Assembly (NCBI RefSeq): GCF_014897585.1
Contig: NZ_JABUXW010000008.1
Location: 62,001 to 126,000 of the forward strand
Direction of reading: 5' to 3'
Source: Brachybacterium tyrofermentans
Lineage (GTDB): Bacteria; Actinomycetota; Actinomycetes; Actinomycetales; Dermabacteraceae
Length of the DNA: 64,000 nucleotides
The position numbers and the translations under genes are program-made. A model generated the notes under the pieces. It saw only the letters and a list, made by a program, of their open reading frames with translations, had not been told where the DNA came from and searched no databases. Of the stretch, positions 21,149-29,239 are shown one piece after another. Each line of letters starts with the position of its first letter. The stretch's first letter is position 1.

Positions 21149-21958
21149 TCAGTCCGTCTCGCGCCGGCGGCGCAGGAACTGCTCGAACTCCTTGGCGATC
21201 GCGTCGCCGCTCGCCTCGGGGAGATCCGCGGCATCCTGGGCGCGCTCGAGGCGCCGCACGTAGTCGGCGACGTCCTCGTCCGTGCGGGCGAGCTCGTCGA
21301 CGCCGCGCTCCCAGGCTTCGGACTCCTCGAGCAGGTCGTCGATCGGGATCGGCGCGCTGACCAGCGACTGCACTTCCCGGAGCAGACCGAGCACGGCCTT
21401 CGGGGAGGGGTTCTGGGAGACGTAGTGCGGGACCTGCACCCACACGTTCGACGTGCGCAGGCCCGCGCTCGCAGTACGCCGTGCGAGGATCGTCGGGACG
21501 CCGACGGGCCCCGAGTACAGCTCGGAGCCCGCGACCGGCTGGGCCGATCCCGGTTCGATCGAGGAGGAGACCGGCAGAGGGCGGCTGTGCGGGGAATCCG
21601 CCAGGAGCGCACCGAGCGAGATGACCGAGCTCACGTCCAGCAGCTGCATCTGCTCGAGCACCTCGTCGCAGAAGCGCTTCCAGTGCAGGGACGGCTCGGG
21701 ACCCAGCACCGTCACGATCTCGGGGCCACGCGGCGGCTGCACAATCCGCAGCTCGGTGTCCGGCCAGTCGAGAACCCGCAGACCGTCCTCGTCCGTGCTG
21801 ATCTCGGGTCGGTTGACCTGGAAGTCGATGTACTCCTCGGCATCGACCGCGCCGGCCGGCCGTGACGGCCACACCTCGAGCAGATGCTCGATCACCCCGC
21901 TGGCGGCTTCTCCCGCGTCGTTCCATCCGCTGAAAGCCGTGATGGCGATTCGACTCAT
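21149..21958 (-). CDS. PAC2-family protein (proteasome-assembly-chaperone-like fold)
   Basis: The 269 residues match the bacterial PAC2 family: N-terminal ITAFSGWNDAGEAAS, then YIDFQVNRPE, a central SLGALLADSPHSRP and a C-terminal VQSLVSAPIPIDDL segment. The fold is shared with eukaryotic proteasome-assembly chaperones, but the bacterial role is unknown. This genome appears to lack proteasome core genes at the Pup locus (see findings), so the name should not be read as function. The ATG has TATGAT exactly 6 bases upstream. Confidence 0.88.
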   Translation of the reverse strand: MSRIAITAFSGWNDAGEAASGVIEHLLEVWPSRPAGAVDAEEYIDFQVNRPEISTDEDGLRVLDWPDTELRIVQPPRGPEIVTVLGPEPSLHWKRFCDEVLEQMQLLDVSSVISLGALLADSPHSRPLPVSSSIEPGSAQPVAGSELYSGPVGVPTILARRTASAGLRTSNVWVQVPHYVSQNPSPKAVLGLLREVQSLVSAPIPIDDLLEESEAWERGVDELARTDEDVADYVRRLERAQDAADLPEASGDAIAKEFEQFLRRRRETD

Positions 21959-21964
21959 CCCTCC

Positions 21965-21970
21965 ATCATA
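21965..21970 (-). promoter_or_regulatory. Leaderless -10 element of the PAC2 gene
   Basis: TATGAT on the minus strand, then six bases (GGAGGG), then ATG at 21958. GGAGGG also resembles a Shine-Dalgarno but would be too close to the ATG to work as one. Confidence 0.6.
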
Positions 21971-22012
21971 GGCTCCATCGCGCTCTCCGAGCCGAGGCGC
22001 AGGACCACCGGA

Positions 22013-22018
22013 TATCCT
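22013..22018 (+). promoter_or_regulatory. -10 element upstream of the M50 protease gene
   Basis: TATCCT lies 48 bases before the ATG. A GTG at 22023, only 4 bases after it, opens a 15-codon frame whose TGA overlaps the protease start (ATGA). The spacing is shorter than in the other leaderless cases. Confidence 0.45.
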
Positions 22019-22066
22019 CGCTGTGCCCCGGGGATCCACCACCCCGGCCGGAGGAGTGTCCACCCC

Positions 22067-23185
22067 ATGAAGAGCCCCACGCTGAGACTCGGCGCACTGC
22101 CGCCGATCCAGGTCAGCCCGGGCACGCTCGTCACCGTCGCGGTGTTCGCGCTGATGCTGTACCCGTCGTTCTCCGACGGCAGCGGCAGCTTCTCCGCGGC
22201 CGCTCTGCTGCCTGCCCTGGGCATCGCCCTGTTCCTCGTCCTGTCCGTGCTCGTCCACGAGGTGGGGCACGCCGTGAGCGCTCGAGCCTTCGGTGCGACG
22301 GTCGACCACATCGCCCTGACGCTGTGGGGCGGGCACACGCAGTACACGGGGCGGCCGATGTCCGCCGCGGCGTCGATCGTCATCTCGCTCTCGGGCCCGG
22401 TCAGCAACCTGGCCCTCGCCGCGCTCGCCACGGCCGCCGGGACGCTGACCGATGCGGGGACCACCGCGGACGTCTTCTGGTATCTCTGCTCCCGCCTCAA
22501 TCTCGCCCTGGCACTGTTCAACCTGCTTCCCGGCCTGCCCATGGACGGCGGACGCGCCCTGGAGTCCCTGCTCGGCGGTGTGCTGCGCAATCCGCTGCTG
22601 GGTACGCGCGTGACCGCCTGGATCGGACGCGGCATCGCCGTGCTCGTCGTGCTCGTCCCGCTGCGGTGGATCCTGCAGAGCGAGGGAGCAGGCACTTTCC
22701 TGCTGCTCGCGCTGCTCTGGGCGATGCTGATCGCCGGCATGCTCTGGCAGGGCGCCTCCCGGGCGCTCGGTGCGGCGACGCTGCAAGCGCGCATCGACAC
22801 GCTCGCCGCGCGCTCCCTCGCCCGCCCGCTGCGTCTCGTCGCGCCGCAGCAGATGCTCTCCGACCTCGGCCCCTCCTCGGAGCTCGACGCCCTCCTCGTC
22901 CTGGACCAGCGCACCGCCCGGCCGGGGGTCGTCGGTCACGTCCTGCGCGTCCAGCCCGCCGCCGCCGCTGCGGTGCCGGACGGCGAACGCTCCCGCACCC
23001 CGATCAGCGCCGTGGCCGGCCCGGTGGGGGAGATGGGGGCGCTGCGGGCGTCGCTCCGCGGCGACGAACTGGTCTCCGCGATCCTCGCGCGACCGTTCCC
23101 CCTCTATCTCGTGCTGGAGGATTCGGGCCAGGCGCTGGGCGTGATCCTCAGCGACGAGGTCAACGCTCTCCTGCGCGGACGGTGA
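22067..23185 (+). CDS. Site-2-protease-type M50 metallopeptidase
   Basis: An intramembrane zinc protease related to SpoIVFB and Rip enzymes. The 372 residues have about six membrane segments, the zinc motif HEVGH (64-68) in the second hydrophobic segment and the third ligand in NLLPGLPMDGGRALE. The C-terminal 130 residues form a soluble region that may be a divergent CBS pair (inference). The ATG has GGAGGAG 11 bases upstream. Substrates are unknown. No anti-sigma factor gene is nearby. Confidence 0.85.
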   Translation: MKSPTLRLGALPPIQVSPGTLVTVAVFALMLYPSFSDGSGSFSAAALLPALGIALFLVLSVLVHEVGHAVSARAFGATVDHIALTLWGGHTQYTGRPMSAAASIVISLSGPVSNLALAALATAAGTLTDAGTTADVFWYLCSRLNLALALFNLLPGLPMDGGRALESLLGGVLRNPLLGTRVTAWIGRGIAVLVVLVPLRWILQSEGAGTFLLLALLWAMLIAGMLWQGASRALGAATLQARIDTLAARSLARPLRLVAPQQMLSDLGPSSELDALLVLDQRTARPGVVGHVLRVQPAAAAAVPDGERSRTPISAVAGPVGEMGALRASLRGDELVSAILARPFPLYLVLEDSGQALGVILSDEVNALLRGR

Positions 23186-24361: not shown

Positions 24362-25930
24362 ATGAAGACGTACGCGGAGATGACCGCAGAGCTGGACAAG
24401 CTCGCCGCCCACAACGAACGGCTGGTGGGCGGGCTGCGCAGCGCCCGCGCCCAGATCGTCGAGCTCAAGAGCGACCTGGAGCGGGTGGGCGATCCGCCCA
24501 ACACCTATGCGACCTTCCTGCGCCGCGCCGAGGGCACGACCCTGGACGTGCTCCACAACGGTCGCAAGCTGCGCGTGGCCACCGCCGCGAGCCTCGACCT
24601 CGAGGCTCTGGATCCCGGCACCGAGCTGCGGCTGAACGAGGCGCTCGCAGCCGTCGAGGCCGTCCCGGCCGGCGACTCCGGCAACGTCGTCCCGGTCGTG
24701 GAGGCCCTGGCGGACTCCCGGCTCCTGGTCGCCGTCGCCCCGGATGACACCCGGGTGCTGCGCCGCGCGGGCGGACTCACGCAGGAGACCCTCCATCCCG
24801 GCGACCACGTCCTCGTGGATCTCAAGGCCCAGCTGGTCATGGAGCGCATCGACCGCGCCGAGATCACCGACCTCGTCCTCGAGCAGGTCCCGGACGTCTC
24901 CTTCGACGAGATCGGCGGGCTCGGGGACCAGATCGAGGCGATCCGTGACGCGGTCGAGCTGCCGTTCCTCCAGCAGGACCTCTACCGCACCTACGGGCTG
25001 CGGCCGCCCCAGGGCGTGCTGCTCTACGGCCCTCCCGGCTGCGGCAAGACGATGATCGCCAAGGCGGTTGCCCACGAGCTGGTGCTGCGCAGCGCCGAGG
25101 TGCGCGGGGTGAGCGTCGCCGAGGCCCTCGAGAACTCCGCGTTCCTCAACGTCAAGGGGCCCGAGCTGCTGAACAAGTACGTCGGCGAGACGGAGCGCTC
25201 CATCCGTCTGGTGTTCGAGCGCGCCCGCGAGAAGGCCGCCGCCGACCATCCCGTGGTGATCTTCTTCGACGAGATGGAAGCGCTGTTCCGCACCCGCGGC
25301 ACCGGCATGTCCAGCGATGTCGAGACCACCATCGTGCCGCAGCTGCTCGCCGAGATCGACGGCGTGGAGGGCCTGGACAACGTGATCGTCATCGGCGCCT
25401 CCAACCGTGAGGACATGATCGATCCCGCGATCCTGCGCCCGGGACGACTCGACGTGAAGATCCGCGTGCGCCGCCCGCATGCCCGCGCCGCCCGCGAGAT
25501 CCTCGGCCTGTACCTCGATCCGTCCGTGCCGGTGCGCGAGGACCGCGAGCGGCTCCTGGACCTCGCGGTGCGCGAGATCTACGCCGAGGGTCCGGAATCG
25601 GCCTTCGTGCGCCTGGACTATTCCGACGGCGTGCAGGAGACGCTCCACTTCCGCGACTTCGTCTCCGGCGCGACCCTGCGCAACATCACCGACCGCGCCA
25701 AGAAGCTCGCCGTTAAGGAGCAGCTGTCCAGCGGGGCCGTCGGCCTGACGTCCCAGCACCTGGTCAGCGCGATCACCGCGGAGTTCATCGAGAACGAGGA
25801 CATGCCCTCGGCCGCGCATCCCGAGGACTGGGCGCGCATCTCCGGGACCCGGGGCGCCGCGGGCCGACGGGTGGAGGCCGTGATCCCCCTCCAGGGCCGT
25901 TCCCGCGCCGAGGAGGAGGCCGCCCGATGA
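24362..25930 (+). CDS. mpa: Pup-binding AAA ATPase (Mpa/ARC)
   Basis: Mpa/ARC recognises pupylated proteins and unfolds them with ATP. The 522 residues have an N-terminal coiled coil (about 1-42) that binds Pup, tandem OB domains (about 45-170), and one AAA module with Walker A GPPGCGKT (223-230) and Walker [10 protein letters not shown] (D303, E304). It ends in Glu-Glu-Ala-Ala-Arg. The C-terminal Gln-Tyr-Leu that docks mycobacterial Mpa onto the 20S proteasome is missing. The length is close to Corynebacterium ARC, which also works without a 20S core. It overlaps dop by 4 bases. Confidence 0.95.
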
Positions 25931-27597
25931 GCATCGACCGCCTGCTGACCACCGAGCGCGTGATGGGCATCGAGACCGAGTTCGGGGTGCTCCACGCCGA
26001 CCTGGAGGACCGGGCCCGTGCGGGCGCCGGCAGCTCGATCCTGCTCTCCCATCTCGTGGTCGGGGCCTACGCCCTCCTGGACCCCCAGGAAGGGGAGAGG
26101 GGCCGCCGCGTGCGGTGGGACTACGGCGACGAGACACCGCTGCGCGATGCCCGCGGCTTCGAGCTGCAGCGCGCCGCCGCCCACCCCAGCCAACTCACCG
26201 ACGAGGTGCGCGACGCCCACGTGCCCAGCGTCGAGATGGATGCCCCGCTGGCCGGCCCGGAGGTCGCCCCGGACGGGGACGACGCCGAGGTGCTCGCCTG
26301 GGCCGCGCAGCGCTCGCTGGGCAACGCCGTGCTGACCAACGGCGCGCGCTGGTACGTGGACCATGCGCATCCGGAGTACTCGGCCCCCGAGGTCATGCGG
26401 GCCCGCGAGGCCGTGGTCCAGGACCGCGCGGGAGAGGAGATCGCCCGCCGCTCGATGGGCATCCTCGCCGCTGCCGACGGCATCCCCGAGGTGGCGCTGT
26501 ACAAGAACAACACCGACGGGAAGGGTGCCTCCTACGGCACCCACGAGAACTTCCTGGTCGATCGGGCGGTGCCCTTCGAGCGCGTCACCGCAGCGATGCT
26601 GCCCTTCCTGGCCACCCGGCAGGTGCTGGTCGGCGCCGGACGCGTGGGCCTGGGCACCCGGGGCGAGCGGCCCGGGTTCCAGCTCTCCTCCCGCGCGGAC
26701 TTCATGGAGGCCGAGGTCGGTCTCGAGACCACTCTGAACCGGCCCATCGTGAACACCCGCGACGAACCCCACGCCGATCCCGCGCGGTTCCGTCGGCTGC
26801 ACGTGATCATCGGGGACGCGAACCTGCTGGAGGAATCCACCTTCCTCAAGCTCGGCACCGCCTCCCTCGTGCTCGCCGCCCTCGAGGCCGAGCACCGCAC
26901 CGGTCGCGCCATCCTCCCGGACCTGCGCCTGGTCGATCCGGTCGCCGCGGTGCGCACCATCAGCCACGACCCGACGCTGCGGGCCACCGTGGAGCTGGTC
27001 GACGGCCGCGAGCTGACCGCGCTCCAGATTCAACGGGCCCATCTCGACGCGATCGCCGCGGTCGCCGACCGTGACGACGCCGAGACGGCGCAGGTGCTCG
27101 ACTCCTGGGCCGAGCTGCTGGACCTGCTCGAGCAGGATCCTGCGCTGGCCGCGGACCGCGTCGAATGGGTCGCGAAGCTGCAGCTGCTGGAGCGCTACCG
27201 CGCGCGCCACGGCCTGGAGTGGGGCGATCCGCGCCTGTCGATGATCGACCTGCAGTACTCCGACCTCCGCCCTGCCCAGGGACTGTTCGCCAAGCTCCGG
27301 GCCGCAGGAGCGGTGCGCACGCTCGTGGGCCAGGACGAGGTCGACGCGGCCATGACCACCGCTCCGACCTCGACCCGCGCCCATCTGCGCGGCGGCCTCA
27401 TCTCCGCGCACCGTGAGCACGTACCCTCGGCCGGGTGGGATGCGATCACCCTCGCCGGCCCCGACAGCGGGTACCGCCTGCGCCTCGCGGATCCGCGCCT
27501 GGGCTCCGCCGCCTGGTGCGAGCTGCACGGCATCGACCTGACCACCGATCCCGAGACGATCCTCGACGCGCTGCGCCGGGCCGTCTCCGCGTCCTGA
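25927..27597 (+). CDS. dop: Deamidase/depupylase of Pup
   Basis: Dop converts the C-terminal Gln of Pup to Glu and also removes Pup from substrates. The 556 residues show the carboxylate-amine ligase fold with GIETEFGV (about 14-21, the ATP-site Glu), the Dop-specific insertion (about 38-80), a SQLTDE segment holding the expected nucleophilic Asp, and [12 protein letters not shown] overlap with mpa and a 9-base gap to pup indicate co-translation. It is a paralogue of PafA, about 1.8 kb downstream. Confidence 0.95.
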
Positions 27598-27606
27598 GGA
27601 GGACCC

Positions 27607-27795
27607 ATGTCCCAGCAGTCCCTGAACGGCCCCGGCACCGGAGGCGAGGACGAGCAGAACGAGGTCGCCGCGACCGGCGGCCAGACCTTCGCCTCGGCGC
27701 AGGGCGCCGACGACCTGCTCGACGAGATCGACGCCGTGCTGGAATCCAACGCCGAGACCTTCGTGCGCTCCTTCGTCCAGAAGGGCGGTCAGTGA
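27607..27795 (+). CDS. pup: Prokaryotic ubiquitin-like protein Pup
   Basis: Pup is an unstructured tag joined to lysines of target proteins. The 62 residues end in GGQ, so Dop must deamidate it before PafA can use it. The central segment DDLLDEIDAVLESNAETFV forms the helix that binds the Mpa coiled coil. GAGGA precedes the ATG by 5 bases. The gap to pafA is only 4 bases. In proteasome-bearing actinobacteria prcB and prcA lie here. Confidence 0.97.
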   Translation: MSQQSLNGPGTGGEDEQNEVAATGGQTFASAQGADDLLDEIDAVLESNAETFVRSFVQKGGQ

Positions 27796-27799
27796 CCCG

Positions 27800-29239
27800 A
27801 TGAAGCGTCGCGTCGGAGGGTTGGAGACCGAGTTCGGTCTGGTGTGCGTGCGGGCCGACGGTTCGCGGGCCCTGGAGCCGGAGGCGGCCGCCCGCGAGCT
27901 GTTCCGCCCGGTGGTCGCGATGGGTCGTTCCTCGAACGTGTTCCTGCGCAACGCCGCTCGTCTCTATCTCGACGTGGGCTCCCATCCGGAGTACGCGACC
28001 GCCGAGTGCGACGACTGGTGGGAGCTGGTGGCGCAGGACCGTGCCGGGGAGCGGATCTTCGCCGACCTCACCACCCAGGCCAACGAGCGCCTCGCGGCCG
28101 ACGGGCAGGATGCCCGCATCCACCTGCTGAAGAACAACGTGGACTCCGCGGGCAATGCCTTCGGGTCCCATGAGAACTACCTGGTGGACCGTCGAGGCGA
28201 GTTCACGCGGCTGCCGCGCTTCCTGCTGCCCTTCCTGGTCACACGCCAGATCGTCACGGGCGCCGGAGGGGTGGCCGCCCCTGCGGACGACGAGGACGGC
28301 GCGCAGTTCGTCTTCTCGCGGCGCAGCGATCACATGTGGGAGGCCGTCTCCTCGGCCACCACCCGCACCCGCCCGATCATCAACACCCGCGACGAGCCCC
28401 ATGGCGATCCCACCCGCTTCCGGCGGCTCCACGTCATCGTGGGGGACTCGACCATGAGCGAGGTCTCCACCTACCTGCGCTTCGCGACCACCGACCTGGT
28501 GCTGCGGGCGATCGAGTCCGGGCGCACCCTGCCCGAGCTCGCCCTCCATGACGACATCTCCACGATCCGCGCTGTGGCCCGCGACCTCACCGGGCGGGAA
28601 CCGATCGCGCTCGCGAACGGCGGCACGACGTCCGCCGTCGAGGTGCAGCAGCGGTGGCTCGACGCGACCGCGACCCTCGTCGAGGACGGCGACCGCAGGG
28701 ACCGCGAGGTGCTGGAGACCTGGCAGAAGGCGATCGATGCGGTCGCCACCGGAGATCGCAGCTGGGCCGCGACCCATCTGGACTGGGCCATCAAGGAGCG
28801 GCTGTTCGGCCAGGTCACCGAACGTCGCGGAGTGGGCCTGGGCGATTCCTCGATCGAGCGGCTCGACCTCGCCTATCACGACATCGATCCCGGTCAGAGC
28901 GTGTTCCAGGCCCTCCAGCGCCGCGAGCTAGCACCGTCCCAGCTGTCCGAGCAGCGCATCGAAGCGGCCCGCGAGACCGCCCCGCGCACGACCCGCGCGC
29001 ATCTGCGCGGCCAGGTCGTCACCGCCGCGCAGGAGCACGGCGTCGATCACGTCGTGGACTGGACCACCTTCCGCCTGACCCGGCCCGGCGCGATGCCCGT
29101 GCAGGTGCTCGACCCCTTCGCCACCTCGCTGCCCACGGTCGACGCCCTGCTCGAGGAGATCCGGAGCCTCGGCGGAGCCCGCAGCGCCGGCGGCACCGGC
29201 GTGCCCGGTGCGGGCGCCCAGCAACCCCCTGCAGTCTGA
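27800..29239 (+). CDS. pafA: Pup--protein ligase
   Basis: PafA activates the C-terminal Glu of Pup with ATP and joins it to substrate lysines. The 479 residues start with VGGLETEFGLV, contain YLDVGSHPEYATAECD (catalytic Asp region), HLLKNNVDSAGNAFGSHENY, and RTRPIINTRDEPH. It lacks the Dop insertion, which separates it from dop. The last 25 residues are low-complexity Gly/Ala/Pro. Downstream, two FKBP isomerase genes follow the same order seen in related Micrococcales. Confidence 0.96.
   Translation: MKRRVGGLETEFGLVCVRADGSRALEPEAAARELFRPVVAMGRSSNVFLRNAARLYLDVGSHPEYATAECDDWWELVAQDRAGERIFADLTTQANERLAADGQDARIHLLKNNVDSAGNAFGSHENYLVDRRGEFTRLPRFLLPFLVTRQIVTGAGGVAAPADDEDGAQFVFSRRSDHMWEAVSSATTRTRPIINTRDEPHGDPTRFRRLHVIVGDSTMSEVSTYLRFATTDLVLRAIESGRTLPELALHDDISTIRAVARDLTGREPIALANGGTTSAVEVQQRWLDATATLVEDGDRRDREVLETWQKAIDAVATGDRSWAATHLDWAIKERLFGQVTERRGVGLGDSSIERLDLAYHDIDPGQSVFQALQRRELAPSQLSEQRIEAARETAPRTTRAHLRGQVVTAAQEHGVDHVVDWTTFRLTRPGAMPVQVLDPFATSLPTVDALLEEIRSLGGARSAGGTGVPGAGAQQPPAV

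Follow-up and report, generated by a model that had tools for sequence, protein, structure and literature searches.

The Pupylation Locus

The 64,000-nucleotide stretch of the Brachybacterium tyrofermentans genome analyzed in the present work (hereafter, the window) harbors a pupylation locus, that is, the genes for tagging proteins with Pup. Four genes, mpa, dop, pup, and pafA, adjoin each other on the forward strand, and each scores above the curated cut-off of its own NCBIfam model. The first, mpa (ARC; 24362..25930), codes for an AAA unfoldase of 522 residues (TIGR03689, 676 bits; cut-off 505). It is followed by dop (25927..27597; TIGR03688, 578 bits; cut-off 492), coding for the depupylase/deamidase, whose start overlaps the mpa stop (ATGA), by pup (27607..27795; 62 residues; TIGR03687, 70 bits; cut-off 41), and by pafA (27800..29239; TIGR03686, 583 bits; cut-off 551), coding for the Pup ligase. 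The pup stop codon ends at 27795 and the pafA ATG begins at 27800; the four bases in between (27796..27799, forward strand) represent the slot that harbors prcB and prcA, the 20S proteasome genes, in the relatives retaining them. The adjacency of the four genes and the 4-base gap reported in the first-pass annotation were thus confirmed, with exact coordinates, by the open reading frames, the sequence, and the curated models.

According to the domain search and the alignment with the Mpa chain 7ljf, which covers residues 6–500, the window Mpa comprises two OB domains, an AAA domain, and a region equivalent to the beta-grasp domain of Mycobacterium tuberculosis Mpa. Residues 6–50, which may form the N-terminal Pup-binding coiled coil, align with the same chain; the Walker A motif (GPPGCGKT) and the pore loop (YVG) are conserved. 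PafA aligns over residues 2–453 with the solved ligase 4b0t, including the YLDVGSHPEYAT stretch, whose Asp we take to be catalytic. The alignment with the solved Dop revealed that a conserved stretch of 10 residues is retained, containing an Asp to which we likewise assign, by assumption, a functional role. Moreover, Dop residues 91–129 (39 residues) lie between two aligned stretches that are separated by just 5 residues in the solved Dop 9cku, and may represent the “Dop-loop” region. Pup terminates with GGQ, a form requiring deamidation before ligation (PMC8223512).

The ratio of nonsynonymous to synonymous substitutions (dN/dS), calculated by a simple method among the window and two other genomes (G046 and G309), ranged from 0.11 to 0.18 for Mpa, Dop, and PafA. 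The four pupylation genes are intact and conserved throughout the genus, and they look selected.

Absence of the 20S Proteasome

The genome embedding the window is 4.61 Mb long, split into 108 contigs, with a completeness of 100% and a contamination of 0.61%. Probing all 108 contigs with the PF00227 profile (proteasome alpha/beta subunits), which in control searches also matches Escherichia coli and Bacillus subtilis, did not retrieve any sequence, and the absence of prcA and prcB proposed in the first-pass annotation was therefore borne out genome-wide. All 38 Brachybacterium genomes, five of which are less than 90% complete and several of which consist of a single contig, were likewise negative with this profile, and matches in the family (Dermabacteraceae) were confined to 5 of the 47 genomes, diverged copies included. 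That 20S genes are present and were missed, through a gap between the 108 contigs or through divergence, is scarcely conceivable in view of the completeness of the genome, of the uniform lack of matches in the genus, single-contig assemblies included, and of the ability of the same search to pick up copies just 38–53% identical to typical ones.

Bpa (PF10759) gave no match in the window's genome either; a single family genome out of 47 harbors it (G318), the same whose Mpa keeps the C-terminal docking tail GQYL.

The Docking Elements of Mpa

The window Mpa ends with EEAAR, as previously annotated, and lacks both GQYL and a penultimate Tyr. No GQY, QYL, or Y-[LIVM]-stop end was detected in any frame from 120 bases upstream to 150 bases downstream of its stop codon. 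A frameshift concealing GQYL was ruled out also for the family, since among 45 loci, in any frame, the tail was seen in G318 alone, which does encode it.

The Glu-rich end is encoded by GAGGAGGAGG (25910..25919, forward strand), which lies at the 3′ end of mpa and stops 7 bases short of the dop ATG; this sequence is probably the Shine-Dalgarno site of dop and would account for the Glu-Glu of EEAAR. Of 36 Brachybacterium loci, 28 have an ATGA or GTGA overlap that supplies an in-frame start for dop, and a Shine-Dalgarno-like word lies just upstream in 26 of these; we infer that dop translation begins at the overlap in all 28. The Mpa ends vary among genomes, and this, together with the explanation of Glu-Glu by the dop ribosome-binding site, led us to discard the idea of a new C-terminal motif replacing GQYL. 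An Mpa end shaped by the start of dop fits a relaxed constraint on the tail. In one Brachybacterium locus (L207, genome G029), the mpa frame lacks the usual stop and continues into dop in another frame.

A second contact with the 20S particle is known from the mycobacterial Mpa-20S structure, in which a beta-hairpin loop carrying two charged residues, D504 and K505, makes contact with the H0 helices of the alpha-ring (PMC8755798). In the alignment, the codons at 25631..25636 (forward strand) specify Val-Gln at the position of D504-K505 of M. tuberculosis Mpa; the pair is thus lost.

Mpa ends were read at 45 family loci (44 fetched plus the window), leaving out G307 and G310, which have no Mpa above the cut-off. 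A Tyr-x end (x being the last residue) was found neither in the 40 loci devoid of prcBA nor in four prcBA-bearing loci of genera g2 and g3, and the same holds for D504 (0/40 and 0/4). The Walker A, pore loop, and Walker B words were retrieved from all 40 prcBA-less loci. Judging from these motifs, the Mpa of these loci is a protein whose motor has been retained and whose 20S dock has been eroded.

Distribution of prcBA, Bpa, and the Mpa Tail

Within the family, three arrangements can be recognized:

G318 (genus g95) has mpa-dop-pup-prcB-prcA-pafA, with GQYL on both Mpa and Bpa.

G062 (g2) and G174, G316, and G317 (g3) harbor prcB-prcA between pup and pafA; their Mpa proteins end with EQV, AAP, ETL, and GAQ, respectively, all tail-less, and PF10759 has no match in these four genomes.

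Both prcBA and the tail are missing from G211 (g3), G265 (g4), G319 and G320 (g96), and the 36 Brachybacterium loci.

The comparison of Dermabacteraceae Mpa C-termini thus confirmed a tail-less end in 44 of 45 loci, but four of those retain prcBA. The joint loss of the partner genes and the docking tail put forward in the first-pass annotation was consequently not borne out, as these four genomes fall inside the tail-less clade.

The survey was extended to 297 genomes of the order, searched with PF00227, the Mpa model (at its cut-off), and PF10759. PF00227 matched 166 genomes and Mpa was above the cut-off in 263; the other 34 include all 22 genomes of family f19. Therefore, the loss of prcBA with retention of the pupylation genes is common, in agreement with reviews (PMC6466877; PMC8223512), one of which reports that about half of the sequenced actinobacteria have lost the core 20S genes (PMC6466877).

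All 46 loci with prcBA that were read in G318 and in the families other than the window's own (f1), f7, and f20 have an Mpa with a Tyr-x end and with D504; 30 of the 46 are the best-scoring matches to the Mpa model, which itself contains the tail, so that the draw is biased. A set of 80 named loci gave 78 Tyr-x ends, the exceptions being L073 (Brachybacterium) and L133 (Serinicoccus), the latter with no PrcBA seen within the locus, and 79 loci with D504, L073 being the exception. Both prcB and prcA were called locally in at least 55 of these 80 loci, a lower bound owing to contig ends and a narrow profile, and this count was not used as support.

The tail is missing from other 20S-bearing lineages as well. 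None of the 23 f7 loci, all with prcBA, has a Tyr-x end (16 end with DLV or DLL) or D504. Bpa is present in 20 of the 23 f7 genomes and ends with GNYL in all seven proteins read, which implies that Bpa can still make use of the 20S pocket in a family whose Mpa is devoid of the tyrosine tail; the DLV/DLL ends may yet dock weakly. The pore-loop word NK[FYW]VGE occurs in 0 of 23 f7 Mpa proteins versus 39 of the 46 tailed loci. Similarly, the 12 prcBA-bearing f20 loci that were read, from fragmented draft genomes, have no Tyr-x end, and 11 of them keep D504. Overall, with the 80 named loci set apart, 39 of the 85 Mpa ends read at prcBA-bearing loci of the order lack the tyrosine tail, a fraction that is not a rate, since f7 and f20 were sampled deliberately and 30 of the others are best matches to a tail-containing model.

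Outside the family, 75 prcBA-less loci were read, representing 73 of 80 genomes (G098 of f20 was kept apart and six f10 genomes were left out). Four of them have a Tyr-x end, and 18 have no residue aligned at the hairpin position. The prcBA-less loci L233, L234, L237, and L230, whose Mpa proteins end with RDYL or GTYL and keep D504-K505, have possibly lost prcBA recently. In f10 loci without prcBA (e.g., L278, L287, and L302), Mpa stops shortly after the AAA region. Two f3 genomes without prcBA carry two pupylation loci each: those of G179 (L227 and L228) both comprise mpa, dop, pup, and pafA, with open frames about 33–48% identical, and one of those of G151 (L238 and L249) lacks dop between mpa and pup.

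Bpa was found in 126 of the 297 genomes, never without prcBA; 40 genomes, some of them incomplete and 15 belonging to f20, harbor prcBA without Bpa. According to a published rule, every 20S-bearing actinobacterium has Bpa, and those without the 20S lack it (PMC8223512). The survey agrees with the “no 20S, no Bpa” half of the rule and not with the other half.

A Possible Role for Pupylation without the Proteasome

We favor, with fairly good confidence, the interpretation that the window encodes a complete pupylation system devoid of the 20S proteasome, in which the four genes are intact, Mpa lacks both GQYL and the hairpin D-K pair, the tail having been lost before prcBA, and reversible tagging feeds Mpa-driven unfolding or remodeling. 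Dop would deamidate Pup-GGQ and PafA would attach Pup to lysines; the Mpa ring would then grip Pup and either pull apart the tagged protein or extract it from its complex, and Dop would strip Pup, so that the target would be remodeled and recycled rather than degraded by the proteasome. Unfolding or remodeling had also been suggested in the first-pass annotation, and it remains the likeliest reading; the proteasome-free locus and the tail-less Mpa were confirmed, and the joint loss invoked as its basis found no support.

Chambered proteases other than the 20S are general to bacteria, and it could be argued that Mpa passes unfolded Pup-tagged proteins to one of them, tagging thus ending in breakdown. 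The Walker motifs and pore loop in all 40 prcBA-less family loci make threading probable, and to this extent they are compatible with such a hand-over. However, the last Mpa residues vary even within the genus and the Glu-Glu is explained by the dop ribosome-binding site, leaving no conserved new docking end, in a comparison that did not extend to Clp-type docking loops; we regard this alternative as unlikely.

It is still less probable that the locus is a fading relic with little function, in the course of being lost after uncoupling. The disappearance of prcBA, Bpa, the tail, and the hairpin pair from most of the family, as well as the 34 genomes of the order without Mpa above the cut-off, would fit such erosion. 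Nevertheless, Mpa is above the curated cut-off in 45 of the 47 family genomes (the remaining two being 88% and 74% complete), and the low dN/dS values and the motifs retained by PafA, Dop, and Mpa argue against decay.

In Corynebacterium glutamicum, ARC takes apart pupylated ferritin (PMC8223512; PMC5515868; PMC12288473). The window's genome (G000) encodes a ferritin-family protein and a Dps; the former (contig C25, locus L391) is non-heme-ferritin-like and falls below the NCBIfam cut-off and above the Pfam one. By analogy, ferritin is a possible Pup client in Brachybacterium. Five of the 47 family genomes are without a match to the ferritin-family profile PF00210, and four of these (G076, G174, G316, and G317) are 99% complete. 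Since each of these four has mpa, dop, pup, and pafA, ferritin is not the sole reason for keeping pupylation.

A Probable Order of the Losses

A tree was built from 39 rows of Mpa (tail omitted), Dop, and PafA by a quick search without bootstrap. The 28 tail-less family rows form one clade, with a value of 100 in the Shimodaira-Hasegawa-like approximate likelihood ratio test, beside G318, and prcBA is scattered within it. Counting unordered changes over the whole tree gave four for prcBA (G218 of f6 included) and two for the tail. If lost genes were not regained, a single tail loss preceded four losses of prcBA, separately in g96, Brachybacterium, G265, and G211. Either way, the tail was gone while prcBA was still present. 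We consider a regain less likely than loss alone, because the position of prcBA in the locus is unchanged and because D504, Bpa, and ordinary PrcAB are all found in G318.

We can thus depict the following scenario. After the G318 lineage had split off, Bpa as well as the tail and hairpin pair of Mpa would have disappeared from the family, prcB-prcA persisting for a time; the genomes seen would then record four later losses of prcBA, one of them predating Brachybacterium. The unfoldase would therefore have been uncoupled before the loss of the 20S, provided that no regain occurred.

The opposite possibility is that the tail disappeared merely because the partner genes had gone first, or simultaneously. 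None of the 75 prcBA-less loci outside the family ends with GQYL and 71 have no Tyr-x end, as would be expected in this case, and G242 (..GTYL) and G137, G225, and G278 (..RDYL) have no prcBA and still keep Tyr-Leu and D504-K505. This explanation is contradicted for the window's family by the tail-less Mpa proteins of the prcBA-bearing G062, G174, G316, and G317, unless g2 and g3 regained prcBA, and prcBA also occurs without the tail in all 23 f7 and all 12 f20 loci read; we consider it very improbable.

Some points weigh against uncoupling followed by 20S loss. The order of the losses assumes no regain of prcBA or of the tail; the two unordered tail changes would imply an older loss and a regain in G318, and a loss-only scenario requires three tail losses (in the window's family, in f7, and in G218). 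In the Mpa-Dop-PafA tree, of 36 inner branches 11 carry no star, among them the placement of G062 (89), and 5 are open; the PrcAB tree, of which the branches alone were used since its f1 group also took in f12, f13, f17, and f18, joins G062 with g3 (100/99), on a very long branch, without placing them. Outside the family, prcBA went first in G242, G137, G225, and G278, where Tyr-Leu was kept, which speaks against a universal uncoupling-first rule. Lastly, the dN/dS values come from a simple method, and synonymous sites are nearly saturated in the g3 pairs.

The 20S Proteasome of the g2 and g3 Relatives

The PrcB sequences of G062, G174, G316, and G317 all retain the presumed active-site positions T1, D17, K33, the D of DSAT, and the first S of GSGS; PrcA retains R26 and K52 in all four. 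A Lys and an Arg are conserved in the 20S docking pocket (PMC6466877). Among G174, G316, and G317, dN/dS was 0.09–0.14 for PrcB and 0.06–0.08 for PrcA; synonymous sites approached saturation in these comparisons, and the dN of both exceeds that of Mpa, Dop, and PafA. Identity to the G292 sequences is 0.42–0.53 for G062, G174, and G317 versus 0.56–0.61 for G318, pointing to fast evolution. A dead 20S in g2 and g3 is not supported, given the conserved active-site and pocket residues and the g3 dN/dS of 0.06–0.14; these prcBA look like working but loosened genes.

Cpa was considered as a substitute activator: TIGR01243, probed over 16 genomes, gave in G062, G174, G316, and G317 no two-domain match beyond FtsH-like and Mpa ones, which represents a weak test. 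We tentatively suggest, with somewhat less than even confidence, that uncoupling came first and that Pup-Mpa and the 20S coexist as separate machines in several lineages: in g2 and g3, the 20S would be fed by an unrecognized activator and Mpa would remodel alone, and Brachybacterium would represent the end state after the loss of an idle or redundant 20S.

Comparison with Known Systems

The locus itself is an ordinary example of the known proteasome-less pupylation loci. Those of C. glutamicum and Micrococcus luteus likewise have the pupylation genes without prcBA, a likeness by gene content, and for the former a non-degradative role of pupylation has been proposed (PMC8223512), which is the same reading as ours. 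Unlike in these two organisms, the order of the losses is visible here through sister genera still holding the 20S. The mycobacterial Pup-proteasome system shares with the window the gene order mpa-dop-pup-(prcBA)-pafA, the enzyme families, and a Pup with GGQ; compared to it, the window lacks prcB-prcA, its Mpa has no GQYL and has V-Q in place of D504-K505 in the hairpin, and no Bpa match was found in its genome.

Propionibacterium acnes, already named as an exception to the Bpa-20S rule, is described as having the 20S without ARC and Bpa, that is, without either GQYL-bearing activator (PMC4254994), a condition to be compared with that of G062 and g3. Unlike P. acnes, G062 and g3 possess a full set of pupylation components, Mpa included, minus the docking tail, and Brachybacterium is without the 20S.

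What is new comes from the comparison, namely the inferred order of the losses and the existence of relatives that pair a 20S with an uncoupled Mpa. The literature searched, most subscription papers being outside its reach, yielded no report of an actinobacterium combining the 20S with a tail-less Mpa. The family offers a graded natural series (tailed Mpa with Bpa and the 20S; tail-less Mpa with the 20S; tail-less Mpa alone) that bears on why pupylation persists without the proteasome, and it supplies further exceptions to the rule, cited above, that Bpa is present in every 20S-bearing actinobacterium. Furthermore, the presence of prcBA and mpa in a genome cannot be read as degradation of pupylated proteins by Mpa-20S.

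Neighboring Genes

Upstream of mpa, the window harbors a trmI-like gene, an M50 protease gene, a PAC2 gene on the opposite strand, and mshC; two FKBP genes and a PriA gene lie downstream of pafA. The gene of the PAC2-family protein (21152–22939, reverse strand; PF09754, 168 bits) lies three genes ahead of mpa, in a genome without a 20S match; in eukaryotes, PAC2 proteins are chaperones of 20S assembly (PMC4255298).

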